Source: Stomoxys calcitrans
Taxonomy: Eukaryota; Arthropoda; Insecta; Diptera; Muscidae
Direction of reading: 5' to 3'
NCBI RefSeq assembly: GCF_963082655.1
Contig: NC_081554.1
Span: 128,966,962-129,030,961 of the forward strand
DNA: 64,000 nucleotides
Part shown: piece after piece, positions 13,557 to 63,484 of the stretch
Layout: each line of letters starts with the position of its first letter
How positions within the stretch are numbered: position 1 is the first letter of the stretch
Made by a program: the position numbers and the translations under genes
The notes under the pieces: generated by a model
What the model saw: the letters and a program-made list of their open reading frames with translations, nothing else
Told to the model about the DNA's origin: nothing
Database searches by the model: none

Positions 13557-13560
13557 TTTA

Positions 13561-28690: not shown

Positions 28691-28691
28691 A

Positions 28692-33510: not shown

Positions 33511-33548
33511 GCGGATGGAAGAAACATCATATCGGTCGAAATATTTTT

Positions 33549-39328: not shown

Positions 39329-40984
39329 AGCAAGGAAGGGCAAAAGTCGGGCGGTGCCAACTGTATAATACCCTACACCTACCCTATAAGTAGAATGTGG
39401 GACCTATAACCAATTCTGAATCAATTTTGATGGACCTCGACGAGCAAAAATGTTCAAACTGTAAAAACTACGATTGACAAATGGCAACACTATGGCACAT
39501 TACCCAAAATCTAACGAACGTATATATGGGAGCTTTATCTAATTTTGAACCGTTTTCGAGCAAATTCTCAAATGGTAGTCGTTGAGGAAAACGCTGTGCA
39601 AAATTTTGGCAAGATTGGTCAAACAATGCGCTTGCAGTGGCTCTTGGGGTGAAAATCTGGCGATATATATACATATAACAGCTATATCTGAATCTGGGCC
39701 GATGTCTTTGAAATGCACCAGTAGTATCGAGAGTCATAAGGAAATCCTTCCTGCAAAATTTCGACAGAATCGGAACACAAATGATCACTTTTTTGCAATA
39801 TTTCTCAAAATTGGACAAACATATATATGAGAGCTATGTCTAATCTGAACCGATTTCGACCAAACTACTCAGATACTGTGGCAGTCGTCGAGGAAAGCGT
39901 TTTGCAAAATTTTGGAAAGATGTATCAATAAATGCGCTTGCAGTGACTCTAGAAGTTAAAATCGGGTAATATATTGGGTTGCCCAAAAAGTAATTGCGGA
40001 TTTTTTAAAATATAGTAAATGCATTTTTAATAAAGCTTAGAATGAACTTTAATCAAATACACTTTTTTTCTAAAGCAAGCTAAAAGTAACAGCTGATAAC
40101 TGACAGAAGAAAGAATGCAATTACAGAGTCACAAGCTGTGAAAAAATTTGTCAACGCCGACTATATGAAAAATCCGCAATTACTTTTTGGGCAACCCAAT
40201 AAATATATATATATGAGAGCTATATCTAAATCTGAACCGATTTCCATGAAATTCACCAGTTATATTGAGAATCAAGGGAAAATCCTCCTGCCGAATTTCG
40301 AGAAAATACGTAAACAAAAGAAAATTTTATCGCAATATTACTGCAAATAGGGCGAACATATATATGGGAGCTATATCTAAAGCTGAACCGATATTGACCA
40401 AACTCTATGTATATTGTGGTAGTCACTGAGGAAAGCGTTGTGCATTATTTTGGCAAGATTGATCAATAAATGTGCTTGCAGTGGCTCTAGGAGTAAAAAT
40501 CGGGCGATATATGTATATGAGAGCTATATTTTAATCTGAACCGATTTCCATGAAATTCACCAGTAATGTCGAGAGTCGTAAAAAAATCCATCCTGGCACA
40601 TTTCGAGAGAATCGGTTAACAAATAACCATTTTACTGCATCATTACTGCAAATCGGACGTACATATATATTGGAGCTATATTCAGATCTGAACCGATTTT
40701 TCAATAGGCTTCGTCTCTAGGCCGAAAAACATGCCTGTAACAAATTTGAAGACGATCGGATGAAAACTGCGACCTGTAATTTGTACACAAATTAACACGG
40801 GCAGACGGACAGACAGACGGACGGACAGACAGGCAGACAGACGGACATAGCTAAATCGAATCAGAAAGTGATTCTGAGTCGATTGGTATACTTATCAATG
40901 GGTCTATCTCCCTTCCTTTTGCGTGTTACAAACTAATTCACTAACTTATAATACCCTGTACCACAGTAGTGGTGTAGGGTATAA
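39329..40984 (-). mobile_element. INE-1-like element, family C, near full length
   Basis: Tail CAAGGAAGGGCAAAAGTCG-GGCGGTGCC at 39331, then TATAATACCCTACACC, about eight monomers with ATGGGAGCTATATCTAAA-TCTGAACCGAT cores. Phases are 39533, 39682, 39834, then after the 226-bp insertion 40220, 40371, 40524, 40676 (steps 149-153). A GACGGACAGACAGACGG array lies at 40802-40852 and the head AATACCCTGTACCACAGTAG-TGGTGTAGGGTATAAA at 40950-40984. Confidence 0.85.
39974..40199. mobile_element. Mariner-type MITE with 32-bp perfect TIRs
   Basis: Both ends begin TTGGGTTGCCCAAAAAGTAA and continue TTGCGGATTTTT, 32 bp identical, with TA duplicated at 39972-39973 and 40200-40201. The 226-bp element sits inside a family C monomer and has no transposase. 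The perfect TIRs suggest a fairly recent insertion. Confidence 0.93.
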
Positions 40985-41427
40985 ACACCAATTCTATATC
41001 ACCTTGTCATAAACTTCATCTTGAGAAGATTTTCCCTGAGGTAGTTGAACAAGCTTCAATAACAATAACAATAATGCTCATATTGTTATTTGCCCAATGT
41101 ATTGGCAATATTTAAATCCTTCTCACCAGGGCCATATCGGTGTAGAATTTTCAACTTGGTTTTTATTCACATTTTTTTTTTACTCCTTGAACGATATTTT
41201 TAATACGGAATCACAAAACAAAAGATCTAAAAGTTATCGTCGACCAAAATTGGAATTTGCCAATTTCGCAAAACAAATGATGAATGTTAACAAACAGACA
41301 CGAATATTGACTTAAATTGGGATTCCCTCAAAAAATCACATAGACCGGCTTTTGCTTTGAAACTATAGAGACGACGTAAAACGAACAACGATGTAAATCG
41401 AAGTTTGTAGGAATAATTTTCTTGACG
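40985..41427. other. No identifiable gene
   Basis: A 72-codon frame at 41097-41315 has no recognisable domain. The missing left part of the Tc1-like element that ends at 41617 is not found here. Confidence 0.35.
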
Positions 41428-41617
41428 ACATTTCGAACCGAACACTGATTTTGGTAATAAAATTCAATGACTTGCAAGCGTTGCTCGTTAGTAAGTCTAT
41501 TCATGATGAAATGTCAAAGCATACTGAGCATCTTTCTCTTTGACACCATGTCTGAAATCCCACGTGATCTGTCAAATACTAATGCATGAAAATCCTAACC
41601 TCAAAAAAATCACCCTT
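41428..41617 (-). mobile_element. Solitary end of the 18677-type Tc1-like element
   Basis: 190 bp nearly identical to the right arm at 19094-19283 (ACATTTCGAACCGAACACTG to AAAAAATCACCCTT), with TA at 41618-41619 and a family A monomer resuming beyond. The minus strand again encodes the transposase start LTNEQRLQ. The other end is missing. Confidence 0.88.
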
Positions 41618-42065
41618 TAGAAGTCATAGTGTCGTATTTCAGTTCATTCGGATAAGAATTGCGCCTTGTAGGGGCTTAAGAAGCAACATCTGGAGATCGG
41701 TTTATATGGGAGCTGTATCAAGCTACTGATCGATTCAGATCATAATAAACACGAACGTTGACGGTCATGAGAGAAGCCATTGTACAAATTTTCAGCCAAA
41801 TCGGATAAGAATTGCGCCCTCTAGAAGCCCAGGAAGTCAAGACCCAAGATCGGTTTGTATGGCAGCTATATTTACAATCCCAACCGACCTACACTAATAA
41901 AAAGTATTTGTGCAAAATTTCAAGCGGCTAGCTTTACTCCTTTGAAAGTTAGACAGACGGACGGACATGGCTTGATCGACTTAAACTGACATGACGAACA
42001 AGAATATATATACTTTATGGGGTCTCAGACGCATATTTCCGAGGTGTTACAAACAGGATGACGAG
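41618..42065 (-). mobile_element. Family A element (minus), head to head with the next
   Basis: Monomers (GGTTTATATGGGAGCTGTAT, AATTGCGCCCTCTAGAAGC), TAGACAGACGGACGGACATGG (41950-41971), (TA)n-CTTTATGGGG, and head block GTTACAAACAGGATGACG, which stops at the junction with a plus-strand head. Confidence 0.82.
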
Positions 42066-43078
42066 ATTAGGATGGGGGTATACTAAATTCGTCATTCTGT
42101 TTGTAACTCCTCGAAATGTTCGTCTAAAACCACATAAAGTATATATATTCTTGATCGCCATGACATTTAATGTCGATCAAGCCATGTCTGTCCGTCTGTC
42201 TTTCGAAAGATTGCTAAATTTCGAAGGAGTTAAGCCATATAAGCCGATTTGAGTCTTGACTTTTTGAGCTTATATCCGATATGGCTGAAATTTTGCGTGA
42301 AGTGTTTTGTTATGACTTCCAACCACTTTGTTGCCATAAAAATGGATCTCCCGATAAGACTTTTTGAGCTTCTAGAGACCGCACGATTTTGTACCCGAAT
42401 TGACTGAAATAAAGCTCATATCATTTTGGTATGACTTCCAACAACTGTGCCAACTATGGTCTAAATCGGTTGATGACCTGATATAGCTACCATATAAACC
42501 GATCTCCCGTTTAGACTTCTGGAGCCTCTAGAGGGCGCAACTGTTACCCAATTTGATTGAAATTTGGCATAAGTTGTTTTGGTATGACTTCCAACTTTTG
42601 TACCAAGATTGAACTAAATCTATCTATAACCTGAGAGATGCTTATAGATGATGATCAGAGAGCACAATTCTTATCTGATTTGGCTGAAATTTTGCAAGTA
42701 TCATTTTGCTATGATTTTCAACAACTGTGTTAAGTATGGTCTAAATAAGTCTATATCCTGATATAGCTGCCATATAAACAGATCTCCTGATTTCACTTCT
42801 TTACTCCTAGACAGCGCAATTCCTATTCAATTTGGCTGAAATTTTGCATATGTTGTTTTGGTATGACTTCCAACAAATGTGCCAAGTATGATCTAAATCG
42901 GTTTATAACCTAATATATCTGCTATTTAAACCGATATCCCAATTTGATTTTCTGAGCCTCTTGAGAGCGAAAGTATTATTCAATTTGCCTGAAATTTTCG
43001 AGGTGATATTTTTCTATGACTTGCACGGCATGACAAGTACGGTCCATATCCGTCAATAACTTCATATAGTTCATATAT
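42066..43078 (+). mobile_element. Family A element (plus), tail-less
   Basis: Head GGATGGGGGTATACTAAATTC, GTATATATATTCTTGATCGCC, a GTCTGTCCGTCTGTC microsatellite, then about five monomers with TTTTGGTATGACTTCCAAC variants and cores CTGATATAGCTACCATATAA. Ends where a family C piece begins. Confidence 0.82.
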
Positions 43079-43902
43079 TTTTGAAAAAGGAATATAGCTT
43101 CACTTTATGTATATCTTTTATCGTATATGGACTTTTAACTCTGCATTAATCACAATTTTGGTCCGATCTTTACAAAATATTTGTGCAAAATTTAATGAAA
43201 TCTGTCCAGGTTTATACATAGCTCCCATGTGTCTTTTAGCCGATATACTCGATCGTGGGATCGTGGGTTGAGTTTGAAAGTGCAAAAGGTATACAACTTT
43301 AAGTCTGACCACAGTAAAACATAGCTGCCATGTATTAAAAGTAGTCTACCTTTCCTTATTTCTTTTTATAACCTACACCACCACTCTGGTACAGGGTATT
43401 GTAACTTTGGACATTTGTTTGCAACGCTAAGAAGGAGACGAGGTAGTATACCGATCGGCTTAAAATCACTTCCAGATTCGATTTAGCTATGTCTGTCTGT
43501 CCATGTATTCTTGTTATCTAGGTACAGGTAGCATTTGTTCCGATTGTCATGAAATTTAGCGCAAGTCTCTTCTTGGTAAAATGACGAACGACATCGATTT
43601 AAAAGAAATCTGATTTAGATATAGCTCTCGTATATGTATATATTACATCGCATATGGCCTTGGAGGCCACCTTTTATTTGAAGTCCCTGTATACATCTTT
43701 CATCCGATATGAACTTTTAAGTCTGTTATTGCCACAATTTAGGTCATATCGTAAGAAAATCTTGCAAGGTTCTATTCAAAATTTTATTAGGTATGCAAAA
43801 CTACAGTTCAGCATAGGTTCCATGTATTAAAAGTAGTACGTAGATTCGGTAGTGTAGGCTATTATATAGTGGGCTCCGCCCGAATTTTGCCTTTCCTTAC
43901 TG
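43079..43902 (+). mobile_element. Two family C copies in direct tandem
   Basis: 43081-43360 is a head-truncated copy ending CTACCTTTCCTTATTT. 43369-43902 is a second copy with head TAACCTACACCACCACTCTGG, TGTCTGTCTGTCC and a tail GGGCTCCGCCCGAATTTTGC then CTTTCCTTACTG. Both share the block CATGTATTAAAAGTAGT just before the tail. Confidence 0.72.
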
Positions 43903-44501
43903 TTTTTTTCTTGCTTCCAACTTACGAAGTTTTTAAAAATTGCTTTGCAATGGTTATTTCTTTTATTTGCTAGACAAAATCCATGACTCTTTCCCAGTAG
44001 GTTTTTGCAAAAACAACTTACTTTGAGTTTCTTACCGCTCCCTCTTTACAGAATTAATTTCCATGGTACGATAATTCGCTTTCCTCCAATTGTGTGACAC
44101 ACACTTCAGTTGAAATCGTTATTACCACAGTCGTTATAATAAAATAAACAAACAATGTATGGGCCGCACCTCCTACCTACTTATAAACAACATTGCAGTT
44201 GTTAAAATAATATAAACAATATTGTGCACATAAATGTTTCGCCCGTTCGTTCGCTTTTTTGTTAAATGAATTTTGTTTACACGGCTCTAAAGAGGATTAT
44301 AATAATGTGCGAAATTTATGTTGGCCATACAGAATGAACAATAAACGAATTTGTGGTACATTTCTTTTGGCTTTGTGTTGAAAAAGTTTCTTCTCCTCCA
44401 AAGAGGTAATAAATATTGGCAGGTTCTCCATAATTGGAAGCATTTCCGTATGCCATTGTTTATGAGCATCAAATTTTCTCCAGACTAAGAAACACAAGTA
44501 A
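43903..44501. other. No identifiable gene
   Basis: AT-rich unique sequence. Overlapping minus-strand frames at 44287-44497 are not recognised. Confidence 0.35.
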
Positions 44502-44760
44502 AAACGTGTTAAGTTCAGCCGGGATGAATCTTATAAATTCTTCACTATGGATGATCACATTTGTCAAGTTTTTTGCACGATTTAACTCAATAGGTAGATA
44601 GATAGACAATAAATAGATAAGAAATACATTTCATAGTTGCTCAAGAATTCAAATCGAGAAATAGGTTGTATGGGAGCTATATCAGTTTATGGATCGTTTT
44701 AAAAGAAAAATGTTCGTACTATGGACCGATTCAGACCATACACTAAAAGAAAAATGTTCG
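44502..44760 (-). mobile_element. Family A tail fragment
   Basis: CAAGTAAAAACGTGTTAAG-TTCAGCCGGGATGAATC, then a decayed TTCTTCACTATGG-ATGATCACATTTGTC and a partial monomer (ATGGGAGCTATATCAGTTTA). A unit AAAAGAAAAATGTTCGTA is doubled at 44700 and 44743. Confidence 0.65.
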
Positions 44761-45079
44761 TATTATGAATGATTTTGATTGTTGTATAAATGAAATCTGA
44801 CGCTAATATTGAGCCAACGAACAATTCCGTTAATGCAATGAAACCCGTTACGTTGTATTTACAACCAGATCCATGTTCAGTTGTTAATATGATGAATTCA
44901 ATCGTTGTATTAATGACGACTGATCATCGTGTCAACGACCATAATTGGTTAAAAATTTGATTTTTTATTGTATTTATGAAAAGTTATTCGTTATATTAAT
45001 AAAGTAATTTGTACAATTTACGCAGCAGACCATATTTTATAAATTTGTTTTCAGGGTAATTTTTACATTTACACATTTT

Positions 45080-46030
45080 CAGGGGGGCGGGGGTGATGGG
45101 GATATCGGCACCGGGCGGACACTCCCCTTTACCCCAAAAGTACCACCCAAAAAGAAAAGTGGACCGATCGGGACAGTTTTGGACTTAAATGAAAGGTATT
45201 CAAGTCAGTTGAGTACGAATTTCGTATTCAAAATTGAGTCCAAGTAATTGGGGGGCCCCCCCGACCCCAAAACTCCCCAAAATAGGTTTATTGAACGAAA
45301 ATGACAATATGGGGTCGAATGAAAGGTATTCGGGAGTAGATTAAGAATATGGTCACGAAGGAGGTATAGGCTTTATAATTTGTTGATATTGGAAAGGGGC
45401 GGTTCCTCCCCCGTTAATCCAAATACGCCGCCCAAATTCAAAAGCGGACCGATAAGGTCAAATGAAAGAAACTGGAGAGTAGAATACGAATATGTTATAA
45501 AAACTTGGCTTCAAGTATCCAAGGGGTCAGCCAACCCAAAAATGCTCCAAACAGACATAAGGGACGCATATACCAGCAGCAGGCTACGAATATGACATAA
45601 AAAGTGAGGTCTAAATAATTGATGGTCGCCCTATCTCCGATAAACCCCCCAAATGGGAATATTACTCGATCATAGCTTGATGAAACTCAAATGAAAGGCA
45701 TTTTGAGTTCAGATTACGAATGTGAAATTAAACTTTGTTTCCAAGAATCTAGGTGGTGCTTTACCTCCTAAAATTGCCTCCAATAGATTATTGGACCCAT
45801 TAAAACAATGGGAAATCAAGTGATAGATTTTTTTGAGTAGAGTGCGTCATTCAAATTTGTGTTCAAGTGGTAGTGTAGATGAGGTGTGGTGTACAACTCT
45901 CATATAGACGCCCTCCAAAAAACGACTGTATACACAAATTATGACAATATGTGGTAAAATTGAAGGTATAAGTTAGAGGACTGCGAATCTGATATATATG
46001 AGCACCCACAGTCCATCAATCACAACGACC
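45080..46030 (+). repeat. Family D tandem array, G/C-rich monomers
   Basis: Five or more decayed units each with AAATGAAAGGTATT, GAGTAGATTACGAATATG, a CCAAGTAATTGGGGGGCCC-type block, and ACCCCAAAACTCCCCAAA. Unit starts (ATGAAAGG) at 45189, 45319, 45462, 45691 with spacing near 115-145 bp. Distinct from the A/B/C monomers. I have an impression of similar tandem sequence in muscid and blowfly DNA but cannot name the family. Confidence 0.7.
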
Positions 46031-46904
46031 TTACAGAACACTGTGTGATTTAGTTAATGTGTGGAGACCGCCATACCCCCAAAATTATGACGTTCAGCGT
46101 GATAGCGTGAGTTGCAAACCTTAACAGTAAGGTTGTAACCATTTTTAGCTCATCGATAGACAAGACCAAACGACGTGCTGCTGGGCAACAGAACTATCGC
46201 CACCGCACCAAATATATAGACTAGCAAATTAGTTCTTTACCACACAAAATCGTTTAATATGGCAATTTGATTTGATTTAAACAAAGACTTAATGATGACT
46301 ATTTAATAGGTAGTTATGTAGTAATTTATAGACAATCACCATATGATGATCCACTCCAAGCGAGTTGCACTGACATTTAAATTAGCGCCATCTACTGGTT
46401 GTTTCATTTAGATTTAGTTGAGCCAATTGAAAACAGCTATTAGAAGGCGTTAATTTGGAGAAGCCAACATGAACAGAAAGTGGGCAGAGTGATCATAATT
46501 ATGCATACAGCATTTATCTTTGTTATGACAACCAATCGGTCCTCTGAATAAAGAAAAATAAAATATAGGAATTTCGTTGCGGTTGTTAACTGTATTATTT
46601 TTTAACTTTCCCACCCAAGACGGTGTTTAAGGTCGTTTAAGTGCCAATCTTAGAAATTGATATAGATGCCAGATAAAATAGATATAAACACTAAACATTT
46701 CTATAGAAAAAAGAATTTTTGAGAAAAATCTTTTTAGTTGAAATGTTTTTAAAATGTTAGAGTAAGAATAAGAAACACATTTTTCGCGTGGCGAAAGTGT
46801 CTAATTATGTTTTTGCAAGTCCTACACTAAAATCAACTCTTATGCTATCAAAAAGGGGGTAGCGAAGCGTACCACAGGGTTGCCTGTATACATAAACAAT
46901 AAAA
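46031..46904. other. No identifiable gene
   Basis: AT-rich DNA without recognisable frames or repeat families. Confidence 0.35.
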
Positions 46905-47440
46905 AATGACCAATAGCAAACTGTTCATTGTGAAAAAAGGGCATCAACAAGTTTTCTCCACCTAGCTCTATCGTTGGCCAAAGCCTTAACCTGATTCCAA
47001 GATATATGGGTTGATTTCAACTCTGTCTTCGTGCAGCGGATCCATATGTTTTTCGGGCGTCCCCTCCCTCGCTGTCCTTGCGGGTTGCAGTCTAGGACAT
47101 TTCTCGCTATATCATCTCACGGTCGGTGTAGCATATGACCCAACCAAGTCTATTTTTTCTTCCGGATTTTTACTTCTACAGGAGAAGTGTTTGTTCTTAT
47201 TTGAAATTCCTCATTTGAAATACGATTTGTCCAGAAAATTCTAAGTATTTGTCGTAGGCAGTGATTTATAAAAACTTGGATTTTGCGGGAAGTAGTTTGT
47301 GTCAAGCTCCATGTTGTACTGGCATATTATATAATAGATTTCACACTACAGTTATAGATTCTGACTTTTGCATTATGTGAGATGTACCTGCATCTCAAAA
47401 CTTTGTTGAGTTTAAGAAATGCACTCCTTGTTGACATACA
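46905..47440 (-). pseudogene. LINE RT C-terminal region (different family from RTE and LOA copies)
   Basis: Minus-strand translation across frameshifts gives LNKVLRCRYISHNAKVRIYN, INHCLRQILRIFWTNRISN, WLGHMLHR, NPQGQRGRGRPKNIW and RARWRKLVDAL. These match the end of a LINE pol: ...FINKCLRRIL, WxGHxLR, WNPQGxRxRGRP, DRxxWRxxVxALC. The palm motifs are absent, so this is a 5'-truncated copy. Confidence 0.78.
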
Positions 47441-47996
47441 TACGTGCGAATTTTGGTAAAAATTCTCCATATCAAATTTAAGCAAATTTTGTCATACGCA
47501 ATGTCCCTACTTATTTTAATCATAAAAACCAATATCAATTTTCGAGGAACTTTATTGATACATAATGCATGCATACGGAGCTACATGTAAATTATTATCA
47601 GCATGTCCGCGATTGGTCACCTGATAACGTCCAGCTTTTGTTGCCTGTTGTTTCCATTGATTACCACATGCCACAAAAGAGGGGACAAAATCCAGTCTTC
47701 TGTAGTTCCTCTAAGCTACTAGTTTAGCCCGTCTCTAGGGATGACTTTATAATCCCGAGTTTCAACACAGAGCTTTCCAAAAAATTTGTTAAAGTATTGA
47801 ACCAACCTTGAAATGCAGTTGGCCCCATAGAATTTCTGTCAGTGCATGTAAATAAGAAAAGTGTGAAATGTCTGTCAGTAATCGTCATGTGTCGCGTTGT
47901 ATAAATATTTGTATAATTTGTACAACATTCCAGGCGGTTGTTTTAAAAATAATTTGTTAAGGCCTTTTTATTGTACGTAAATATTTGGCAAGTAAA

Positions 47997-48036
<40 letters not shown>

Positions 48037-48841: not shown

Positions 48842-49098
48842 ATACAAGTAAGAGCGTGCTAAGTTCGGCCAATGATTCACTTATGATGTTAAATTTTATA
48901 GAAATCGGTTCAGATTTAGATGTAGCTCAAATATATTAGTATCTCCCGTTATTCATTTTTTGGACCTTTGCAAGTACATTTATCAACCCATTTTCTCAAA
49001 ATGTTACTCTATGACTAACAAAATGTGTAGGGATTTTGGTCCAAGCCAGTAATCGGTTTGTTGTGAGCTTAAACTGCTAAAACGAAACCTCGAAAAAG
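48842..49098 (-). mobile_element. Family A tail fragment joined to other INE-like sequence
   Basis: CAAGTAAGAGCGTGCTAAG then TTCGGCCAATG: the palindrome is cut in its middle. Sequence after it (ATCGGTTCAGATTTAGATG) resembles a family C-like monomer. Confidence 0.55.
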
Positions 49099-49260
49099 TC
49101 AAGAATTCTGTGCTACTAACAAAGTCCCTAATTGCTTACCCTACCACGCCGGGTCTGTTAACCGCGAAAGCCGGGCAAAAGCATAGGAAATGCTACATTT
49201 TCCCAGCATGCCGTACACATGCTATCACTTGCCGCTATTTTTTTGCATAAGTAAGCTCGT
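49099..49260 (-). mobile_element. LINE 3' region fragment
   Basis: CAAGAATTCTGTGCTACTAAC, AACCGCGAAAGCCGGGCAA and AGCATAGGAAATGCTAC match 36610-36770 in order, so it is the same LINE family; the CCTAA tail is not included. Confidence 0.72.
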
Positions 49261-49261
49261 A

Positions 49262-49640: not shown

Positions 49641-49674
49641 TAAAAATTTGACTTCTTGCATATATTTAGTAAAA

Positions 49675-51303
49675 CAAATAAGAAGGCGTTAATGTCGGCC
49701 AAACTTTGGATACCCACCACCTCGGGTATATATATAAACCACCTTTCATCAAAATCCGGTAAAAATTGCATACCTTATGTCCCATAGCAATATATATCGA
49801 AATATGATCCGATTTGGACCAAATACTAATAAGTACAAGTTATTGTTCAATTATGTATAACAAAATATTGGTCTTTTTAGTAGCTATATCTAAAAGTAAA
49901 CCGATCTGACTCATATACAATATGGATGCCTAACATACGCCAATGTGTCAAATTTCAGTTAAATCGGATTATAAATGCGCCTTTTTTGGGGCCAAGACTT
50001 TAATCGAGATATCGGTCTATAAGGCTATATGCAAATCTTGATCTCGATCTAGACCAAATTGCTCTGTCCCAAATTTCGGCAACATCGGACAATAAATGCT
50101 CCTTTTATGGGCCCAAAAAATTAAATCGAGAGATCGGTCAATATGGCAGCTATATCCAAATCTGGACCGATTTGAGTGAAATTGAAGAAGGATGTCGAAG
50201 GGCCTAACAGAACTCACTGTCCCAAATTGCGGCGACATCGGACAATAAATGCGCTTTTTATGGCCCCAAAACCTAAAACCGAGGGATCGGTCCATATGGC
50301 AGCTATATCAAAATCTGTATCGATCTGTGCCATAATGCCGAAGTATGTCAAGAGGTTTAACTTAACTCACTGTTCCAAATTTCGGCGACATCGGACAATC
50401 AAGACCCTAAATCGGGGGATCGGTCTATATGGCAGCTATATCCAACTCTGGACCGATCTGAGCCAAATTGACGAATAATATCGAAGGGCCTAACACAACT
50501 CCAGGTCCTAAATTTCAGCAAAATTGGATAATAAATGTTGCTTTTATGGTCCTTAGACCCTACATCGGAGGATCGGTCTATATGGCAGCTAAATCCAAAT
50601 CTGAACCGATCTGGGCAAAATTGATGGAGGATGTCGAAGGGCCTAACACAACTCACTGTCCCAAATTTCAGCAAAATCGGATAATAAATGTGGCTTTTAT
50701 GGGCTTAAGACCCTAAATTGGGGGATCGGTCTATATGGAAGCTATATCCAAATTTGGACGGATTTGAGCAAAATTGACGATGGATGTCGAGGGACCTAAC
50801 ACAACTCACTGTCCCAAATTTCTGCAAACTCGGATAATAAATGTGTCTTTTATGGGTTTAAGACCCTAAATTGGAGGATCGGTCTATATGGCAGCTATAT
50901 CCAAATTTAGACCGATCTGATCTTTATTGACGGAGAATGTCGAGGGCAATTCACTGTCCCAAATTTTAGCAAAATCGGATAATAAATGTGGCTTTTATTA
51001 GGGTCTTACCTAAATCGGCGGATCGGTCTATATGGGGGCTATATCAAGATATAGTCCAATATCTTTGAACTTAACCTGCTTATGGACAAAAAAAGAATCT
51101 GTGCAAAGTTTCAGCTCAATATCTTTATTTTTGAAGACTGTAGCGAGATTTCAATAGACAGACGGACGGACATGTCTAGATCGTCTTAGATTTTTACGCT
51201 GATTAAGAATATATATACTTTATAGGGTCGGAAATGGATATTTCGATGTGTTGCAAACGGAATGACAAAATGAATATACCCCCATCCTTCGGTGGTGGGT
51301 ATA
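49675..51303 (-). mobile_element. Family B element, complete (1.63 kb)
   Basis: Tail CAAATAAGAAGGCGTTAATG-TCGGCC at 49675, then AAACCACCTTTCATCAAAATC. About eight monomers follow, with GATCGGTCTATATGG at 50419, 50571, 50724 and 50877 (steps 152, 153, 153). GACAGACGGACGGACATG lies at 51159, the (TA)n at 51210 and the head CCATCCTTCGGTGGTGGG at 51283. Frames such as 50399-50674 are 51-codon artefacts. Confidence 0.9.
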
Positions 51304-51354
51304 AAAATCATTTTTGTTGATTAGCATTTAATGAAAACAAATTTAATTCTTATT

Positions 51355-54067: not shown

Positions 54068-55110
54068 ATCTTGTTATACCCTCCACCATACGATGGGAGT
54101 GTACTAATTTCGTCATGCCGTTTGTAACACATCGACAATTTGATCTGAGTATATGTATTCTTGATCGTCTGTCCGTCCTTCTGTCAATCACGCTCACTTT
54201 CGAGGGAGTAAATTTAGGCACTCGAAATTTTTTCACAAATACTTCCCATTAGTGGAGGTCAGTTGGGATTATAAATGGGTCGGTCCATATTCTTGTTTAG
54301 CTGCCATATAAACCGATCTTGGATCTTGACTTCTTAAGCCTCTAGACGGCACAATTTTTAACCGATTTGGCTGAAATTTTGCACTTTTTTGACTTCCTAC
54401 AACTGTGCCAAGGCTCAAAGGTTCATAACCTGATATAGCTGCTATATAAACCGATCTCCTGATTATACTTCTTGAGCTTCTGGAGAGCACAATTATTATA
54501 CGATTGGGCTGAAATTGTGCATAATGTATATTGTTTTGACTTCGAACAACTATGGCGTGTATGGGCTCAATCTGTTTATAACCTGATATAGCTCCCATGT
54601 ATACCGATCTCCCAATTAAAGCTCCCATGTATACCGATCTCCCAATATAAACTGACCTCTCAATTTGACTTCTTGAGCCCCTGGAAGACACAATTGTTGT
54701 CCAATTTGGCTAACATTTTGGACGGAGTATTTTTTTGTGACTTCCAACTGCCATCTACATACGCCCTAAATCAGTCTATAACTTGTAATAACTCCTATAT
54801 AAACCGACCTCCCGATTTGACTTTTTGGGCCTCTGAAAGCTTAAAATTTTGTTCGATTTGGTTGAAATTTTGTACGCAGTGTTCTTTCTGGCTTCCAATA
54901 ATCATGACAAGTACGGTCTACATCTGTCTATGACTTGATCCCCCTCCCATATAAACCGATCTCCCGATTTGACATATTTAGTCGCTGGGAGCCGCAATTG
55001 TAATCCGATTTAACTGATGTCATAACTAAAATACGGAGTGTTGTGTTATGACTTTCAACAACCGTGCCGAAAAAGGTTCAAATCTATCTATAGCTACCAT
55101 TTAAGCCAAA
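54068..55110 (+). mobile_element. Family A element with about six monomers
   Basis: Head TATACCCTCCACCATACGATGG, GTATTCTTGATCG, GTCTGTCCGTCC-TTCTGTC, then monomers (CTGATATAGCTGCTATATAA, CTCCCGATTTGACTTTTTGG). A 30-bp piece (GCTCCCATGTATACCGATCT) is tandemly doubled at 54591-54650. The tail is missing. Confidence 0.82.
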
Positions 55111-55904
55111 GTAACGATAAGTCTTCTAATGCCCCTAGAAGTTTTGAATTTTCGACTGATAATACAGAAATTTGGCACAGAAAGTTCACATGTGCCCACG
55201 AAATATGTGAACAAGAATGGGGTTTCCCAGTTAAACATGGAGTGGGGATTGAGAGATCGATTCTAGTTATGGAGGTGAGAGGCGATGATATCACGAATGG
55301 AATTCCCTGTGAATGCTGAGTGGACTTTACTTTAGCGGGTGGTTTAACTTATAATTCCTTGCTATGGTTGTAGGAGAAGTAAAGTTTTATACTTTATAGA
55401 AAAGGCAAGTGACATACAAGTGAAGTTTTATACTTTCTAGAAAAGGCAAGTGACATGTCGTACTAAAATGCTTATAACTAACAATTCATAATGGTCTTAC
55501 AGTCTTTTGCAGATTAGAACGGATGGCAAAAAAGGAGATATCTTATACAGTATACAATTCATAGTAATTCACAATATAATTCAATGACAAACAACTTATT
55601 CTACGATATATTCTTAATACTTTTCTGCTTTTTTTCTGAATTTAAAGTTACAAATTCAAATTTCTCCAATATGTTAGTAAGTATTAATAAGTATTAAGTA
55701 TCCAATATGTTAGTAAGTATTTGTTTTTCTTTCGTTTAACAAAGCATTTTATACTGAAAACGAACATTTGGGTTTATTTTTCACGTAATAGACCCAGACG
55801 ACACAATTGAAGTTGCTTAGGGTTTAACTATAAACGAAGTGCCTTTAAGTTCATAGAGTTGCACATGCACAACTAACATTGTGGAGGGCTTCTCCCATTA
55901 CGTG
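55111..55904. other. No identifiable gene; small tandem duplication
   Basis: Frames at 55038-55319 are unrecognised. At 55375-55460 a unit of about 50 bp (GAAGTTTTATACTTTCTAG, AAAAGGCAAGTGACAT) occurs twice. Otherwise AT-rich. Confidence 0.45.
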
Positions 55905-56045
55905 TCGAATATAGTCAAAATCGGTCTATAGCCTGATAGTGCTCACATATGAACCGATCTACCTATTTTACTTCTTGAGCCCCTAAAGGGCGCAATTTTT
56001 ATTCGAATTGGCTGAAATATTCCATAAGGATTTCCACTATGCAAT
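55905..56045 (+). mobile_element. Family A monomer fragment
   Basis: ATCGGTCTATAGCCTGATAG, TTCTTGAGCCCCTAAAGGGC and AATTGGCTGAAATATTCC match one family A monomer. Confidence 0.65.
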
Positions 56046-56409
56046 CATTTGAACAATCGGCAGTCACTATTTTTGTAATTTACCCGTATATTTTTATGGG
56101 AATTTTTTTATTGGTTTTTGTAACTCGCCATTCTTTGGAACAGCGTTTTCTAAGTCACACTATTACAGAAATTGTTGATATTATTAATTACAATAGCAAC
56201 AGCGTTATTGTCACTTAATTAATTAAATTTTATAATATATCATTAATGCCCGAATTTTTTGAACAAGGCGATTCAAAGATACACAATATCTAATAAACAT
56301 AATATTTATTATGTTCTAATATTTGTAATTGTAGCACTTAATTTGGATGTTGGTATACCAACAAATTTGACTTGCGAAAATATGAGGTGGTAGCACTGCT
56401 ATTATTACG

Positions 56410-56540
56410 ACACAGCTGTATATGTGGGAGCTATATCTAAATCTTAACCGATTTTCACACAAACTATTATATCGTTTGTCCCTGGGCTAAAAAAGTGATA
56501 TGTGTACAATTTCGTGATAATTGGATAACAAATGCGACTT
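56410..56540 (-). mobile_element. Family C-like monomer fragment
   Basis: TATGTGGGAGCTATATCTAA and ATCTTAACCGATTTTCAC match the family C core; a GATAATTGGATAACAAATGC block follows. One monomer only. Confidence 0.55.
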
Positions 56541-57783
56541 GCACCTTGATTGCAACATATAAATGGTAGAATTAATGGTTTTTTTTCAAGTTGAAAGGTG
56601 CGGACTAGGATTTTAGTCTACATACATACATAATATCTTTGGAGAATTTTTTTACAATTTAATGTAGATTATTTATTTCGATACAATTTACCAGCCCTTA
56701 TGTATACACTTCATCCTAAGATAGTAATGGCCATGTTAAAAATTTTTCTTGTTGGATTATTAATGAATTTGTTCGTGGACACAAATTGTTACTGGAAGTC
56801 GTTCTCGTACTTTATTTGTCAGTAAAAGAGAGCGTAAGAGCGAGCAAAATGTTAAGAGTTTGGCAATTGAGAGCTTACAAATTTTGAGTATCGAACAGCT
56901 GTTTAATTCAAACAAATAGCAAAAAAGAGTAAAGACTGTTCTTACTCTACTGCAAATTTTTACTATCAAAGTACGCGAACAGACCTAATGTCGCACTGTA
57001 GCGTTTTGTGTAAACGTTCATTACGCCCCATATAATATCATTTGGTTATCAATCGAAATCCCTGTCATCGCAACAGATTGTTTTGACTTTTTTTAATCTA
57101 TGTGGCCTCGAAATTGATTTGACAATGCAATTAGCTTTCGTGCACCCAAATTCAAAATAAAAACACAAAAATCGCTGCCCTGCGCAGCAAGTTACGTGCT
57201 TCGTAGCCGTTGGAAGCCGTTTGCAGCTCATTTCATTGTTCAATACAACAAAATTAATTCGTTGAGAATGTCTTATAAATTGACGTAAATTATTTGCTTT
57301 TAATTGTACAAATTAGTGTCAGTCATATATTTTGTTTTCACAGACATGTCAAATGCACAGAAATGAGAATGTGACAACCACAACGACCGCAAATGTCACA
57401 TACGGGGAATATTAAAAGCCTGATTGTCAGCCTCGTTCAATTCTTGCTGAGAGAATAATCACAGCGACGGGGCCAGGCGAAGCAGTCAAACACGTTGTGT
57501 GAAGATGAAAATAAATTAACAAACGACAATGAATGCAAAAAATAATATAAACATCAACTCGACGTTTTTAAGAATTACGTCTGGTAATAAATGAATGAGG
57601 CGATGGACGGACTAATAAAACGGACGAGCGGATGATTTGCAGACAATATGGTCTGTATGACAAAAACAAAATGTTACTGAGTTGTATGCTTCACCAGGCA
57701 TACTTGAAATTAAAACGAATATAAACAAATAAAAGCCAAATTGAAACGATTGTGACTTTTTAATACCCTACACCATAAAAATC
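56541..57783. other. Unique DNA, no gene seen
   Basis: No repeat or coding signal recognised. Contains an imperfect hexamer-poor AT-rich block and, at the right edge, a short ATACCCTACACCATAAAAA head-like piece next to an element tail. Confidence 0.35.
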
Positions 57784-58389
57784 AAGTAAGAACATGTTAG
57801 ATTCGCGTTAAGTTCAGTTTCAGCGAAATCGGGCAACAAATTCGCTTTCTATGGGATTAAGACACTAAATTGGATGATCGGTTCATATGGCAGCTATATC
57901 TAAATTTAGTCTGACCTAGACCATATGCTGGACGTAAGATGGGAGGCAAAATAAAAGTCATTCTGTCAAATTTCAGCGAAATCGGGTAATAAATGCAGTT
58001 TTTATGGGCTTAAGACCCTCAATGAGTAGATCGGTCTGTATGACAGCTACATCTGAATATGGACCGATCTAAATTATATTTGAATAGGATATCGGGAGGC
58101 TTTAATCAACTCACTGTTACCAATATCAGCGAAATCGGATAATAATTGCTGCTTTTATGAGCTTAGGACCTTAAATCGGTCTATATCACAGCTATATCTA
58201 CATATGTTCCGATCTGGATCATATTTAAGTCGGATGTCAGGAGGGATAAAACCACTATGAGCCGATTCGGATGAATATCGGGCTCTATATAGCACAACTT
58301 CCTGTTTCAAATTTTAGCGAAATCGGATTTTACGGGCTTAAGACCCTAAATCGCCAGATCGGTCTATATGGCAGCTATATCCAAATGTA

Positions 58390-58419
58390 GTCCCATTGGG
58401 TCCCATTGGGTCCCATTGG
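58390..58419. repeat. 10-bp unit tandemly tripled
   Basis: GTCCCATTGG occurs three times head to tail inside the family B-like element, a local replication-slippage event. Confidence 0.9.
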
Positions 58420-58533
58420 GTATGTGAACATTTTCAACTCAATATCTCAATTTTTGAAGACTGTAGCGTGATTACAACCGACGAACATGTTAAATCGTTA
58501 AATCGTCTTAGAATTTTACGACGATCAGAAATA

Positions 58534-59262
58534 AAGGGTAATTTTTTAAGAGCTATAGACAAGTTTTTAAAAATAAAAACACACGGAATTCATAAAAATG
58601 CTTGAAATCTTTATTTGAATCGATGGTACGGCCCATATAATTTAATATTTGAAGATTATTTCATGCAAATGTTGACCCTGACTGCGCCTCAAATGGTCCA
58701 TCCGCTTATTTTAATTTTGGCATACTCTTTCCAACTATGCGGCTTGTATCTCATGAATAAATGCTTCAATGTTGTGTGGCATTTTTGAAACCACATGTCA
58801 TGCAAGTCAAACTCTCACATTTTGGGCAAAAAAAAGTTAGATATCATCTTACGATAGCGCTCACCATTCACAGTAACGTTACGATTCGCATCATCTTTGA
58901 AGAAGTACGATGGAATGATGCCACCAGCCCATAAACCGCATTAAACTATTACTTTATCTGTACGTATTGGTGGCTCTTGCAATGCTTCTGGCTGATCTTC
59001 ACTCTAAAATCTGCTTATTTACATACCCATTAAGCCAAAAATGAGCTTCGTCGTAAAATGGAAGAAGCGCGCGATCAACTTTCTTAACAGAGCAAGCATT
59101 TTGATATTAAAATTCAATAATTTGTAAGGGTTGTTCGCAAGCGTCGTTCGTGGTATAATTATAGACCAAACTGAAGATGTTTGATAGAGAAACAAAACAC
59201 GAAATGTCCGTGAGCTGTTTAAACCAGTGTTGCCAAAAAATAAAAGCTAAAAAATCACCCTT
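58534..59262 (-). mobile_element. Tc1/mariner-like element with dead transposase, both ends present
   Basis: Ends AAGGGTAATTTTTTA-GAGC-like and, reversed, AAGGGTGATTTTTTAGC. TA precedes the left end (58532-58533); the right flank reads TG, possibly a mutated TA. Minus-strand translation shows LQIIEF, DEAHFWLNGYVNKQ, SEDQPEALQEPP, NRNVTVNGERYRKMISNFF and DMWFQ with stops and two large deletions. Closest to the 22195 copy. Confidence 0.85.
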
Positions 59263-59578
59263 TGTATACTTTGTATGGTCGGAAATGGATATTTCGATGT
59301 GTTGCAAAGTCCTATGGTGGTGGGTATAAAAATATCGTTTAAATTAAGAAATACTATAAGATCTTAAATCGGAGTTCATCACGAAAAGAAAGCTGAAGAG
59401 ACCCACCGCTTAACACACCAAGAAAATTTTGTTAGATAGAGCAGCAAATATGTTTTGGGCGATTTCGGTTCAAATTTCGAAATAGCTCCCATATAAATGT
59501 TCGTCCGATTTAAAGTAACATTACAATAATGTGGCAATTAGTTAATCTATTTTCGAAAAATATGACACGAAGTACTCA

Positions 59579-59932
59579 TGATACACTGAGAAAATCTGTC
59601 CTAATTTGAAAAATTCGAGCCAAAGATTAGCAAATTTACTTTAAAATTTATTCAATTGTCCAAGCTTTGAAGGGAACAATCTTTTGGTGAAAAATATTTT
59701 TCTCATATAAAGGATTTAATTTAATGGTATGTTAATAAGTCCTTAACTTTGCGTCTTGCGGTATTAAAGACAAAAACCTAAAATGAAGGTCAAAATAACG
59801 TTGCAGGTAAGGTTATTTACCTTGGGAGAAGACAACAGTAAACCGTATTTAATGACACAAAATAGCCTTACAAATAGGAGCGTATTTTAATGGCAAATTA
59901 GTTTAGGTTAAGATGCTAAGCTTAGAAAAGTT
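59579..59932 (+). mobile_element. Left member of an inverted element pair
   Basis: Starts ACACTGAGAAAATCTG. Contains AAGTCCTTAACTTTGCGTC, AAAATGAAGGTCAAAATAAC, ACACAAAATAGCCTTAC and AGGAGCGTATTTTAATGG, each found inverted in 60970-61120. The right end is cut by the family A copy at 59935. Confidence 0.72.
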
Positions 59933-59934
59933 AA

Positions 59935-60664
59935 ACAAGTAAGAGCGTGCTAAGTTCGGCCGGGCCGAATATTATATACCCTCCACCATAGATCGCATTT
60001 GTCGAGTTCTATGCGCGGTATCTCTTTTTAGCCAAACAAAGAATATTGAATAACAACTGTTATGGTATTGGAGCTATATCAAGTTATAGTCCGATTCGGA
60101 CCATAAATGACTGCCAAACATTGTAGAAGTCATTGTATATTGTTTCAGTTCATTCGGATATGAAATGCGCCTTGTAGGGGCTCAAGAAGCAAAATCGTGT
60201 GATAGGTTTATATGGGAGCTGTATCAAGCTATTGATCGATTCAGTCCATATTAGACACGTATGTTGAAAGTCACGAGAGAAGCCGTTGTACAAAATCTCT
60301 GCCAAATCGGATGAGAATTGCGCACTCTAGAGGCTCAAAAAGTCAAGATCTCAGATCGGTTCATATGGCAGCTATATCAGATTATGTACCGATTTGTGCC
60401 ATACTTAACACATTTATTGGAAGTCAAAACAAAACACCACGTGCACAATTTCAGTCAAATCGGACGAGAATCGCGCCTTCTAGAGGCTCAAGAAGTCAAG
60501 ACCCAAGATCAGTTTATATGGCAGCTATATCAAAACATCGACCGCTTTGGCCCATTTACAATCCCAACTGACCTATACTAATAAAAAGTATTTATGTGAA
60601 ATTTCAAGCGGCTAGCTTTACTCCTTCGAAATTTAGCGTGCTTTCGACAGACAGACTGACGAAC
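59935..60664 (-). mobile_element. Family A element lying between the inverted pair
   Basis: Tail CAAGTAAGAGCGTGCTAAG-TTCGGCCGGGCCGAA at 59937, TACCCTCCACCATAG, three monomers (steps close to 153), the GCTAGCTTTACTCCTTCG block and a short GACAGACAGACTGACG. The head beyond the microsatellite is replaced by the right member of the pair. Confidence 0.85.
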
Positions 60665-61259
60665 AGTGAAAAGAAATGCAGCGGAACTTCAGTACTAATT
60701 GTACTTGGATTAGGAATTCACAATAGATTTACAAATTTGTTCTAATACATAATAAATGACATATTTTCTTACATGCTATAAATTCATCTCATAATCCACA
60801 ATTTTACTTCAAAATAGTTCAACTTATTCTACAATACAATAAATACTTAAACTATAGGGACAAAATCAAATTTGTTCACTAATTTTACTTCATAGATAAC
60901 TATCCAATTATTATTTTATGAAAAATTCGTTTTAACTTAGCATCTAAAACTACAAAATTTAACATTTAAAGACGCTCCTGTTTATAAGGCTATTTTGTGT
61001 CTTTAACTAAGGTGCACTGTTGTTTTGTCTCAAGGTTAATTTCCAAACTTTCAATGATATTTTGACATTCATTTTGGATATTTGTCTTTAATAAAAAGAC
61101 GCAAAGTTAAGGATTTATTAACCCACCATTTTAAAACGAAAAATTCGTTATTGTTAATGTTTCTTTAAGGAGTTGGAAAATTGATCATCTTTAAATTATG
61201 TTTTCTAATCCTTGGTTCAAATATTTAAAAATAACACAACAGTTTTTTTTTTGAGTGTA
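60665..61259 (-). mobile_element. Right member of the inverted element pair, possibly full length
   Basis: Ends CAGTGAAAAGAAATG and, at the right, TTTTTTTTTTGAGTGTA, forming weak CASTGA(A/G)AA-type inverted ends. Carries the inverse of the 59579 sequence. AT-rich and without a frame, so non-autonomous if mobile. Superfamily not recognised. Confidence 0.6.
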
Positions 61260-61989
61260 TGATTCTGCAAAACTTCAACGTATTGCAAATGGGACGCTGT
61301 TTGTCGGATTATATTTATGAACTCAAAGCAAAAAAAGTTCGTTGTTGTTGTACAATAGAAGGCACATTTGTGTGTGGGGTAGCGATCATCGTCAAGCTCC
61401 ATAGCTGAGCAAGCGCATCCATAGGATAGAGCGCCGCCTTCTCATATCGGGTATCATAGGCTATCAGTATTTAAGACTCGAGATTCTCCACTCGTTATCG
61501 CTGATCGTCCGCGACCACAATTTCAGCTACTCCGTTTACGAAGCACTCCACTGGACGCTCCCGGTAGCTCCCAACTAAGTCACTCGTAGTCCCGTGGTGG
61601 AAACGTCTTAATTAAGATCGTATGTGTTGTAATCCTTTATTATCTCCAGCTTTACATGGGAAGATGTATCCGTTTAGCAAATACATACACAATTTTTTTT
61701 TTTCAAACCAAGTAAACGCAAAATGTTATATTTAACACTTGGTCGGGAGTAACAATAGAATTACTCGCTTGAAACAATAACTTGCAACAAATTAGCATCA
61801 GCCATTGTGACAACGATCAGCAACATCATGACAGCGAGTGACAGCAACAAGAATGTCTACATCATGCGCTTGATTATTATCGTTGATCGTTTGATCAAAT
61901 TTAGCTTTTCGCGATTCATTCAAGCGATTATTATTGCCGTCGCTTCTGCCATCGCCATTGCCATCATCGACGTCGTCATCATAATAAAG
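61260..61989. other. Unique DNA, possible unrecognised LTR or element piece
   Basis: 61400-61640 is notably more G/C-rich than the surroundings (CTGATCGTCCGCGACCAC, CTGGACGCTCCCGGTAGC) and could be part of an unknown element. No frame or terminal repeat supports this. The rest is AT-rich, including GAT/CAT-rich frames at 61798-62049. Confidence 0.35.
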
Positions 61990-63484
61990 CGTTTTTATAC
62001 CCTCCACCATAAGATGGGGGGTATACTAATTTCGTCATTCTGTTTGTAACTACTCGAAATATTCGTCTGAGACCCCATAAAGTATATATATTCTTGATCG
62101 TCGTGACATTTTATGTCGATCTAGCCATGTCCGTCCGTCTGTCCGTCCGTCCGTCCGTCCGTCCGTCCGTCCGTCCGTCCGTCCGTCCGTCCGTCCGTCC
62201 GTCCGTCCGTCCGTCCGTCCGTCCGTCCGTCCGTCCGTCCGTCCGTCCGTCCGTCCGTCCGTCCGTCTGTCTGTCGAAAGCACGCTAACTTCCGAAGGAG
62301 TAAAGCTAGCCGCTTGAAATTTTGCACAAATACTTCTTATTAGTGTAGGTCGGTTGGTATTGTAAATGGGCCATATCGGTCCATGTTTTGATATAGCTGC
62401 CATATAAACCGATCTTGGGTCTTGACTTCTTGAGCCTCTAGAGTGCGCAATTCTTATCCGATTGGAATGAAATTTTGCACGACGTGTTTTGTTACGATAT
62501 CCAACAACTGTGCCAAGTATGGATCACATCGGTCCATAACCTGATATAGCTGCCATATAAACCGATCTTGGGTCTTGACTTCTTGAGCCTCTAGCGTGCG
62601 CAATTCTTATCCGATTGGAATGAAATTTTGCACGACGTGTTTTGTTATGATATCCAACAACTGTGCCAAGTATGGATCAAATCGGTCCATAACCTGATAT
62701 AGCTGTCATATAAACAGATCTTGGGTCTTGACTTCTTGAGCCTCTAGAGTGCGCAATTCTTATCCGATTGGAATGAAATTTTGCACGACGTGTTTTGTTA
62801 TAATATCCAACAACTGTGCCAAGTAAGGCTCAAATCGGTCCATAACCTGATATAGCTGCCATATAAACCGATCGTGGGTCTTGACTTCTTGAGCCTCTAG
62901 AGGGCGCAATTCTTATCCGATTGGAACGGAATTTCGCACGACGTGTTTTTTTATGATACCCAACAACTATGCCAAGTATGGTTGAAATCGGTCCATAACC
63001 TGATATAGCTGCCATATAAACCGATCTTGGGTCTTGACTTCTTGAGCCTCTAGAGGGCACAATTCTTATCCGATTTGAATGAATTTTTGCAGGAAGTATT
63101 TCGTTATAATATCCAATAACCTTGCCAAGTATGGTTGAAATCGGTCCATAACCTGATATAGCTGTCATATAAACAGATCTGGGGATTTGACTTCTTGAGC
63201 TTCTAGAGCAATTCCTATCCGATTTGGCTGAAATTTTGCATGACGTATTTTATTTTTACTTTCAACAACTGTCAAATAAGGTTCAAATCGGTTCATAACC
63301 TGATATAGCTGCCATATAAACCGATCTGGGATCTTGACTTCTTGACCCCTAGAGGTCGCAATGATTATCCGATATGCCTGAAATTTTGTACGACGGATCC
63401 TCTCATGACCATCAACAAACGTGTTTATTATGGTCTGAATCGGTCTATAGCCCGAGACAGATCCCATATAAATCGTTCTCTCTA
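61990..63484 (+). mobile_element. Family A element with seven near-regular monomers
   Basis: Head TTATACCCTCCACCATAAG-ATGGGGGGTATA, (TA)n-TTCTTGATCG at 62086, and an expanded GTCC array. Monomer phases (GATC of CCGATCTTGGG) lie at 62411, 62564, 62717, 62870, 63023 and 63176, all exactly 153 bp apart, then 63323 after a small deletion. Monomers are very similar to each other, indicating recent amplification. The right end is cut by a LINE insertion at 63484. Confidence 0.93.
62129..62275 (+). repeat. (GTCY)n microsatellite with 31 perfect GTCC units
   Basis: 62141-62264 is an uninterrupted run of 31 GTCC units, flanked by GTCT variants. It sits at the fixed GTCY site of the element, where other copies have only 4-8 units. 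The minus-strand translation is a DGRT repeat, which is not a gene. Confidence 0.97.

Follow-up and report, generated by a model that had tools for sequence, protein, structure and literature searches.

Central tandem repeats of about 153 bp in non-autonomous Helentrons of Stomoxys calcitrans, with a possible constraint on unit length

Elements and their organization

The analyzed region of the Stomoxys calcitrans genome (64 kb, hereafter the window) contains elements with central tandem arrays, which were assigned to families A, B, C, E and F, with two types of unit distinguished in A (Table 1). The three families distinguished in the earlier note are therefore an undercount, as E, F and the second unit type of A had been missed.

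Table 1. Elements, arrays and a nested insertion distinguished in the window
Feature	Position	Strand	Components
Family A element, 3' end truncated in T-rich run	61992..63484	+	5' repeat 61996; GTCC run 62129-62275; core 62314-62413; array 62414-63474
Family B element with 401-bp duplication	33544..35315	+	GTCY 33680-33703; core 33739-33844; array to 35152; box in 3' block 35163-35198; palindrome 35282-35301; common 3' limit 35315
Family B element with damaged palindrome and approximate 3' limit	49650..51307	-	5' end 51307; core 51022-51120; array 49867-50999
Family C element, 3' limit approximate	39340..40983	-	5' repeat 40968-40983; GTCY 40802-40847; arrays 40209-40778 and 39520-39960
Nested insertion splitting family C arrays (226 bp)	39974-40199		
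Family B element	13555..14686	+	core 13704-13783; array to 14483; palindrome 14653-14672
Family B element	23534..24481	+	core 23693-23798; array to 24251; palindrome 24448-24467
Family B element with approximate limits	6159..7545	-	core 7259-7364; array 6336-7252; damaged palindrome 6159-6178
Family B element without 5' part	11694..12675	+	core 11694-11798; array to 12512; palindrome 12642-12661
Family A element without visible 5' part	59937..60656	-	palindrome 59951-59970; array 60066-60499; core 60508-60606
Family A element	35930..36604	-	palindrome 35944-35963; array 36058-36431; 5' block to 36604
Family E element	32144..32804	+	5' block 32144-32444 (core 32345-32444); units 32451-32785; palindrome-like 32785-32804
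Family E array, 154 steps	9185..9616	-	
E-like element	54071..55205	+	5' block 54071-54318; degenerate array 54279-55205
Family F array	42272..43077	+	

All five families sit in elements laid out as non-autonomous Helentrons (HINE/DINE-1 type), which bears out the INE-1/DINE-like identity proposed earlier. The following components were distinguished: (i) a 5' subterminal inverted repeat, whose motif TATACCCTCCACCATA has 19 matches at up to 3 mismatches (0.53 expected), with the common 5' end ATACCC(T/A)CCACC in families A and B; (ii) its 3' partner, GGTGG(A/T)GGGTAT, located before the palindrome in copies of A, B and E, and represented by GGTGTAGGGTAT in C; (iii) block A GTCY microsatellite runs beside the cores of A, B and C elements; and (iv) a 3'-terminal palindrome, (G/A)TTCGGCCCGGCCGAACTTA, common to A and B, with 12 matches at 8 places (0 expected). 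In the A element at 36 kb and the B element at 33 kb the palindrome lies ~14-16 bp short of the common 3' limit, within the distance from the 3' terminus typical of HINE/DINE-1 elements (about 8-35 bp); it is degenerate in family C. The ends, previously described as differing between families, are thus largely common to A and B, and C has the same layout in a diverged form. At seven exact 5' ends TTTTT precedes ATACCC, a T-rich context as read from the occupied sites.

The repeat unit is homologous to the core of the 5' block of its own element, over ~105 bp. When 46 array units (152-154 bp) were used to build a profile, it matched 14 of 14 cores, which had been picked by their profile limits; 12 of them were matched over at least 112 model columns, with about a dozen of these columns lying in the neighboring unit. 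Core homology rests on this array-unit-only profile, because core copies may have entered the general profile in its later rounds. The distance from core to first unit is modally 153 bp in 7 of the 14 cases, and is so over all shared columns in only four.

Among nine ORFs of the window compared with Pfam, a single reverse transcriptase fragment was found just below the cut-off, and Rfam gave no match at gathering scores. A 23-base box had no exact match in prokaryotic genome contigs or viral contigs, as expected.

The repeat units and their relationships

A single profile search detected 135 homologous units, whole or partial, which fall into 39 groups and occupy 26% of the window. The box TCGGTNTATATGGSAGCTATATC was found 71 times at up to 3 mismatches and never in shuffled sequences; weak opposite-strand matches of the profile were attributed, by eye, to short ATCGG/CCGAT half-sites. 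Of 92 measurable steps between units, 51 fall within 152-154 bp, so that the comparison with the ~150-bp DINE-TR1 repeats is apt. The claim that length has been held while sequence drifted is correct, with 41 steps of exactly 153 bp, but constancy is not absolute, since 51 of the 92 deviate (43 shorter and 8 longer). Autocorrelation within the window, which uses no profile, peaked at a lag of 152-154 in 10 of 11 arrays, the exception being the family C part at 39.5 kb (peak at 196).

The 153-bp steps reported in the earlier note are real. Measured from box to box, the family A array has five steps of exactly 153 bp (boxes at 62390, 62543, 62696, 62849, 63002 and 63155) followed by one of 147, and by profile its final two steps are 149 and 150 bp. 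The family B steps at 33838/33991/34144 and 50571/50724/50877 were confirmed; the 33.8-kb array additionally carries a 401-bp segment (97% repeat identity) that contains a 95-bp step. In family C, stepping by about 153 bp is seen between anchors (151, 153 and 152), with the profile placing the last step modally at 144 bp.

Monomers described as differing in most of their sequence align over their whole length, at 57-84% identity between family consensuses. The consensuses of A1, A2, B and E are 153 bp long and that of C is 152 bp, and their joint alignment has 0-1 gap columns. Since the units align end to end at this level of identity, their common length is a matter of inherited homology. For family F a consensus of 121 bp was obtained in one analysis and of 152 bp in another, a discrepancy due to truncation of two of its four units. 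Conserved boxes comprise 38 invariant columns and 32 more kept in 10 of 11 consensuses. The common core claimed for all families exists in family-specific versions: the literal GAGCTATATC...AAATCTGAACCGAT is that of C only, B having GCAGCTATATCCAAATCTGGACCGAT and A having GCAGCTATATCAGGTTATGGACCGAT. In a tree of 78 units, families (66 units) and lineage groups (48 units, leaving 30 outside) were chosen by eye.

Repeated re-homogenization of arrays, which would keep units alike and equal in length, is an improbable main cause, although local duplication does occur. Family A units are mutually close and mostly cluster together in the tree, the B array at 33 kb contains its 401-bp duplication, and 7 of 33 family B units have their best or equal match within their own array; against this, the best match of the other 26 is a unit of another array, and alternating family C units are only 53-60% identical to adjacent ones. 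Terminal units are 0.835 identical across arrays and 0.715 identical to their own array. The units thus descend by position, as is expected if arrays move whole along with the element, and their length is inherited. Short arrays inside elements, with B matches lying mostly elsewhere, also differ from a classical satellite, in which long uniform arrays evolve in concert.

Constraint on unit length

Within lineage groups (48 units), 29 indels were counted per 658 substitutions, and on this basis 14.8 indels are expected on the tree of 11 lineage consensuses. These consensuses measure 153 (seven), 152 (three) and 155 bp (one), i.e., 10 of 11 lie within 1 bp of 153. When drift was simulated at the rate of the inserted copies, this was reached in 0.26% of 5000 runs (P = 0.0026). 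A conservative variant, combining half the tree length with the lower rate limit (5.2 indels expected), was not significant, with P values of 0.035, 0.11 and 0.41 for 1, 2 or 4 indels. Without four small groups, which are included in the tree test, the within-group ratio drops to 0.034 indels per substitution, from 0.044. The consensus alignment was made with a high gap cost; under two of three gap costs, 3-8 small events separate the members of a family C pair, a number at or above expectation, and with gap-tolerant costs these indels compensate each other to a net change of 0-1 bp. Inserted idle copies and active ones may also differ in mutation spectrum, which would weaken the comparison. 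The proposal that length itself is selected therefore has moderate support: the consensus lengths speak for it, and the conservative variant does not reach significance.

Plain descent from one 153-bp ancestor, with few indels by chance and a length devoid of function, is a possible though less probable account. It is consistent with the end-to-end homology of the units, the outcome of the conservative variant, and P0 values of 0.05-0.38 for single family pairs without indels; it is opposed by the simulation, in which drift at the within-group rate seldom leaves as many as 10 of 11 lineages so close to 153 bp, by the comparable unit lengths published for Drosophila, and by the 3' block between array and palindrome of the same elements, which varies from ~95 bp in two A copies to ~130-195 bp in five B copies.

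The earlier note had also suggested nucleosome phasing. The usual nucleosome spacing in flies exceeds what a linker of ~6 bp per unit would give, and one nucleosome per unit is unlikely because 153 bp, close as it is to the 147-bp core particle, leaves just such a linker. A ~10-bp AT rhythm does exist and is suggestive only: WW power at 9.6-10.9 bp is elevated in 9 of 11 consensuses (empirical p<0.05), in a band set after inspection of an earlier result and holding no single period (9.5-10.9 bp). Five of the nine are B lineages, the signal is weak in family A (p 0.05 and 0.10), and the 10.2-bp harmonic of 153 ranks only fourth of 76 in strength. A unit length set by chromatin is quite unlikely, though the rhythm leaves it some probability.

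Least probable of all is an array encoding a 51-residue repeat, its length kept a multiple of three (153 = 3 x 51). Two frames contain 1.17 and 1.57 stops per unit, compared with ~3.3 in shuffles, with 8 and 7 of 35 units stop-free, and family A has open frames of 139 and 157 codons; however, in most units every frame is interrupted by a stop, the frame is kept in 14 of 51 deviating steps (chance level), and there is no codon-phase signal (p=0.12). A single-strand hairpin was likewise rejected: of two pieces of 147 nt, one covering most of an A unit and the other including the B 33-kb core, neither folded better than its shuffles (z 0.11 and -0.79); self-complementarity of four consensuses was at chance level.

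We consider it somewhat more probable than all other accounts together that these are related non-autonomous Helentrons whose central repeats, in all families, descend from one ancestral ~153-bp unit homologous to the 5' core, with length held in transposing lineages and boxes read by a protein. The array stands in 153-bp register with the 5' core in some copies. In transposing lineages, changes of length seem to have been purged more than substitutions, and inserted idle copies are free to lose length. The likeliest reason, we infer, is a DNA-binding protein that reads the spacing and helical phase of two conserved boxes per unit, as a protein-binding ladder; candidate readers are the Rep protein of a partner element or a host factor.

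Relation to known repeats and implications

DINE-TR1 was reportedly described by Dias et al. in 2015. It is reported as a non-autonomous Helentron of several Acalyptratae (PMC6922343), with ~150-bp central tandem repeats that are homologous between species and best conserved over a short stretch (PMC9957191, PMC6922343), and repeats of 150-154 bp occur in several Drosophila and Bactrocera (PMC9957191, PMC3833285). The autonomous Helitron-2 of D. virilis (9141 bp) carries four units of 153-154 bp; this repeat, stated as not part of D. virilis DINE-1, is cut by AluI to 154 bp and has GATC sites 36 and 118 bp apart (PMC3833285). On these descriptions, DINE-TR1 and the D. virilis repeat are the closest known systems. 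The likeness to DINE-TR1 is one of description (~150-bp central repeats in a non-autonomous Helentron), and that to the D. virilis repeat one of unit length and restriction layout, the B consensus having a single AGCT and GATC sites at spacings of 37 and 116 bp. The window differs in holding several families side by side, in the lack of that GATC pair from the A, C and E consensuses, and in elements laid out as non-autonomous, unlike the 9.1-kb Helitron-2.

With DINE-1/INE-1/mini-me elements, the elements share the 5' subterminal repeat, the block A GTCY microsatellite, central repeats, a 3' repeat with stem-loop and probably T-rich sites; the central repeats of the former are described as non-homologous between species and range from ~50 to 500 bp (PMC2374699, PMC4067079), so a dipteran-wide property, as suggested previously, is too broad (PMC2374699). 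The oyster Cg_HINE and Pearl elements, compared here by description, are HINE elements with satellite-like central arrays of ~160 bp, and have units of 138 to 181 bp (PMC7492417). In the literature searched, which excluded most subscription journals, nothing was found on these repeats in calyptrate flies, nor any paper with these sequence letters.

What is new is that divergent families of a single window have units of nearly constant length, the homology of the unit to the 5' core, and the internal indel test. As a tentative and rather doubtful generalization, in Helentrons of higher flies the box-to-box distance may be selected more than the intervening sequence, a helically phased 153-bp ladder in core register being needed for copying and older than the split between Drosophila and the present host. 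Central tandem repeats are frequent in Helentrons, and a length mostly kept amid sequence drift hints at a role for internal spacing in the spread of the element. The ratio of indels to substitutions in jumping lineages and idle copies is a simple test in any sequenced fly. If length is selected in jumping lineages, the repeats would be working parts of transposition rather than passengers, and a selected length would help to explain why Helentrons seed satellite DNAs of ~150 bp.

Unit length and element plan

The array-bearing elements of the window belong to families A (unit types A1 and A2), B, C, E and F of related non-autonomous Helentrons, and in their central arrays periods of 150-154 bp were detected at many places by Tandem Repeats Finder. 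An iterated unit profile gave 135 matches at E<1e-3, whose 39 groups (clusters of matches) amount to 16.5 kb, i.e., 26% of the window. The step between successive units is exactly 153 bp in 41 and 152-154 bp in 51 of the 92 measurable cases; 30 steps are below 150 bp and three above 156 bp, and relative to 153 bp 43 are shorter and eight longer. An exact 153-bp step is present in 16 of the 25 groups with a measurable step, and the autocorrelation peak lies at 152-154 bp in 10 of 11 arrays. Deviating steps include 95 bp in B33 and 98 bp in B13 (B elements near 33 and 13 kb), 131 bp in E32 (an E element near 32 kb) and 201 bp in the 54-kb array. Profile and anchor measurements bore out the coordinates listed in the earlier note.

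The consensus unit is 153 bp long in A (both types), B and E and 152 bp in C, also when each family is aligned alone; that of F is 152 bp in the lineage-group consensus and 121 bp when aligned alone, because two of the four F units are truncated. The view of three separate families with mostly different sequence has to be modified: the units align as one unit, and in the joint alignment the divergence between pairs of family consensuses (F left out) is 16-43% and gap columns number 0-1. A profile built from 46 array units, with the cores (the part of the 5' block preceding the array) left out, matched every one of the 14 cores, in 12 cases across at least 112 model columns; the core is thus a partial unit. 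In seven of 14 elements the first array unit modally lies 153 bp from the core, over all shared columns in four of these and over 0.84, 0.60 and 0.35 of the columns in the other three. Since the units are homologous across families and the core is a partial unit, the common length reflects ancestry, whether or not this alone suffices to explain it.

The elements are composed of a T-rich flank, ATACCC(T/A)CCACC, its partial inverted copy, a stretch resembling CCCTATAAAGTATATATATTCTTGATC, a GTCY microsatellite, the core, several units, a 3' block (between array and palindrome), and a 3' end with a subterminal repeat, the palindrome GTTCGGCCCGGCCGAACTTA and the common 3' limit ACTT. Because this plan is common, the ends of A and B differ less than had been claimed. 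Family C has the same plan, but with TATACCCTACACC and a degenerate palindrome. Such a layout has been described for DINE-1 and HINE elements (PMC2374699, PMC4067079), and the array-bearing elements match it.

Net length and local homogenisation

The indel test covered 48 units in 11 groups (30 of 78 units were not placed). Within groups, 29 indels (25 deletions) accompany 658 substitutions, and at this rate a tree joining the 11 group consensuses, with a length of 2.4 substitutions per site, would be expected to carry 14.8 indels. Consensus lengths are 153 bp in seven, 152 bp in three and 155 bp in one, the last stemming from a two-unit group (units of 153 and 149 bp). If 1, 2 or 4 length changes are taken as visible, P is 6e-6, 5e-5 or 0.001; this count misses compensating indels, and a net-length simulation is therefore the fairer test. 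In it, the mean number of lineages that drift leaves no more than 1 bp from the median is 3.3 of 11; a count of at least 10 was reached in 0.26% of the 5000 runs. Halving the tree and taking the lower rate limit lowers the expectation to 5.2 indels (P 0.035, 0.11 or 0.41 for 1, 2 or 4 changes). With two of the three gap costs, 3-8 small events are seen in C pairs (2.6-2.9 expected), and the pairs A2-B and A2-E each have a single insertion and a single deletion; despite such events, the net change in family pairs is 0-1 bp. Together, these results moderately support the proposal that length was held while sequence drifted, as far as net length is concerned, and weakly support that indels were rare. 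The array-palindrome stretch served as a rough control: by its coordinates, two A copies have ~95 bp there and five B copies ~130-195 bp.

Repeated re-homogenisation, also proposed earlier, would keep the units of an array alike. Best matches lie in another array for 26 of 33 B units (six arrays), and the terminal units of five B arrays show 0.835 mutual identity (10 pairs); against the other units of the same array the value is 0.715 (25 pairs). The C array is a two-unit higher-order repeat with alternating types (C_odd and C_even) 53-60% identical; same-type units inside the 39-40-kb element are 76-81% identical, and a distant C unit (13.3 kb) shares 65-68% identity with units of its type. 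Local homogenisation is not supported as the main cause of the shared unit length. Local duplication does take place: the tandem repeat in B33 is a recent case, which includes a shortened unit. Once the MITE-like insertion splitting the C array is removed with its TA, the spacing of 538 bp becomes 310 bp, near two units.

Features of the window by position
Position	Feature	Remarks
18751-19209	Overlapping ORFs	Presumably mariner-type transposase-like; no Pfam match for the one ORF tested
28409-30128	LINE-like frames, degenerate	28409-28771 vs. Pfam RVT_1: 29.4 bits, just below cut-off (29.6)
33880-34683	401-bp segment (153+153+95), tandemly repeated	97% identity; B33
39520-40778	C array	
39974-40199	226-bp insertion nested in C array	Inverted repeat ends TTGGGTTGCCCAAAAAGTAATTGCGGATTTTT, matching over the first 32 bases; flanked on both sides by TA
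48846-48870	Family A 3' end, exact copy	Beside weak profile matches 48887-49050; remnant of another element
55377-55456	41-bp tandem repeat, two copies	Outside profile matches
62050-62523	Open frame in A units, minus strand	157 codons
62129-62275	Nearly pure GTCC microsatellite, 36.8 copies	Block A of element A; GTCY runs of other copies much shorter
62830-63249	Open frame in A units, minus strand	139 codons

Related repeats and a possible basis of unit length

DINE-TR1 repeats (~150 bp) are homologous between Drosophila species and occur also in Bactrocera; in a DINE-TR1-derived satellite, only the first 30 bp show high identity, and a role has been suggested for this stretch (PMC9957191). 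The 153-154-bp units found in 2219 clusters of D. virilis derive from Helitron-2, which itself carries four (PMC3833285); the AluI and GATC layout reported for that repeat matches the B consensus, but the match to A, C and E is incomplete. DINE-1 central repeats in general span ~50 to 500 bp (PMC2374699), and oyster HINE units, among those listed, 138 to 181 bp (PMC7492417). The arrays of the window belong to these known Helentron-type repeats, with a length constancy sharper than in the reports compared.

Two conserved boxes recur in each unit; of the consensus columns, 38 are invariant and another 32 are kept in 10 of 11. Excess power of WW dinucleotides at 9.6-10.9 bp was found in nine of 11 consensuses (empirical p<0.05, with 556 segments outside arrays as reference), in a band set after inspecting the spectrum, where the 10.2-bp harmonic is fourth; B lineages make up five of the nine, and the units share descent. 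The best period ranges from 9.5 to 10.9 bp, and the rhythm is weak in A (p 0.05, 0.10). Random mutation of the B consensus to 66% identity gave a 95% limit of 0.195, exceeded by E (0.252), C_even (0.237) and F (0.213), with A and C_odd below. A ladder of protein sites at fixed spacing would fit both the boxes and the rhythm. Protein coding by the array is disfavoured by stop and step-frame counts, and two pieces folded as single strands gave chance-level results. Because A units read open on the minus strand, these repeats may lead to spurious protein calls in gene prediction.
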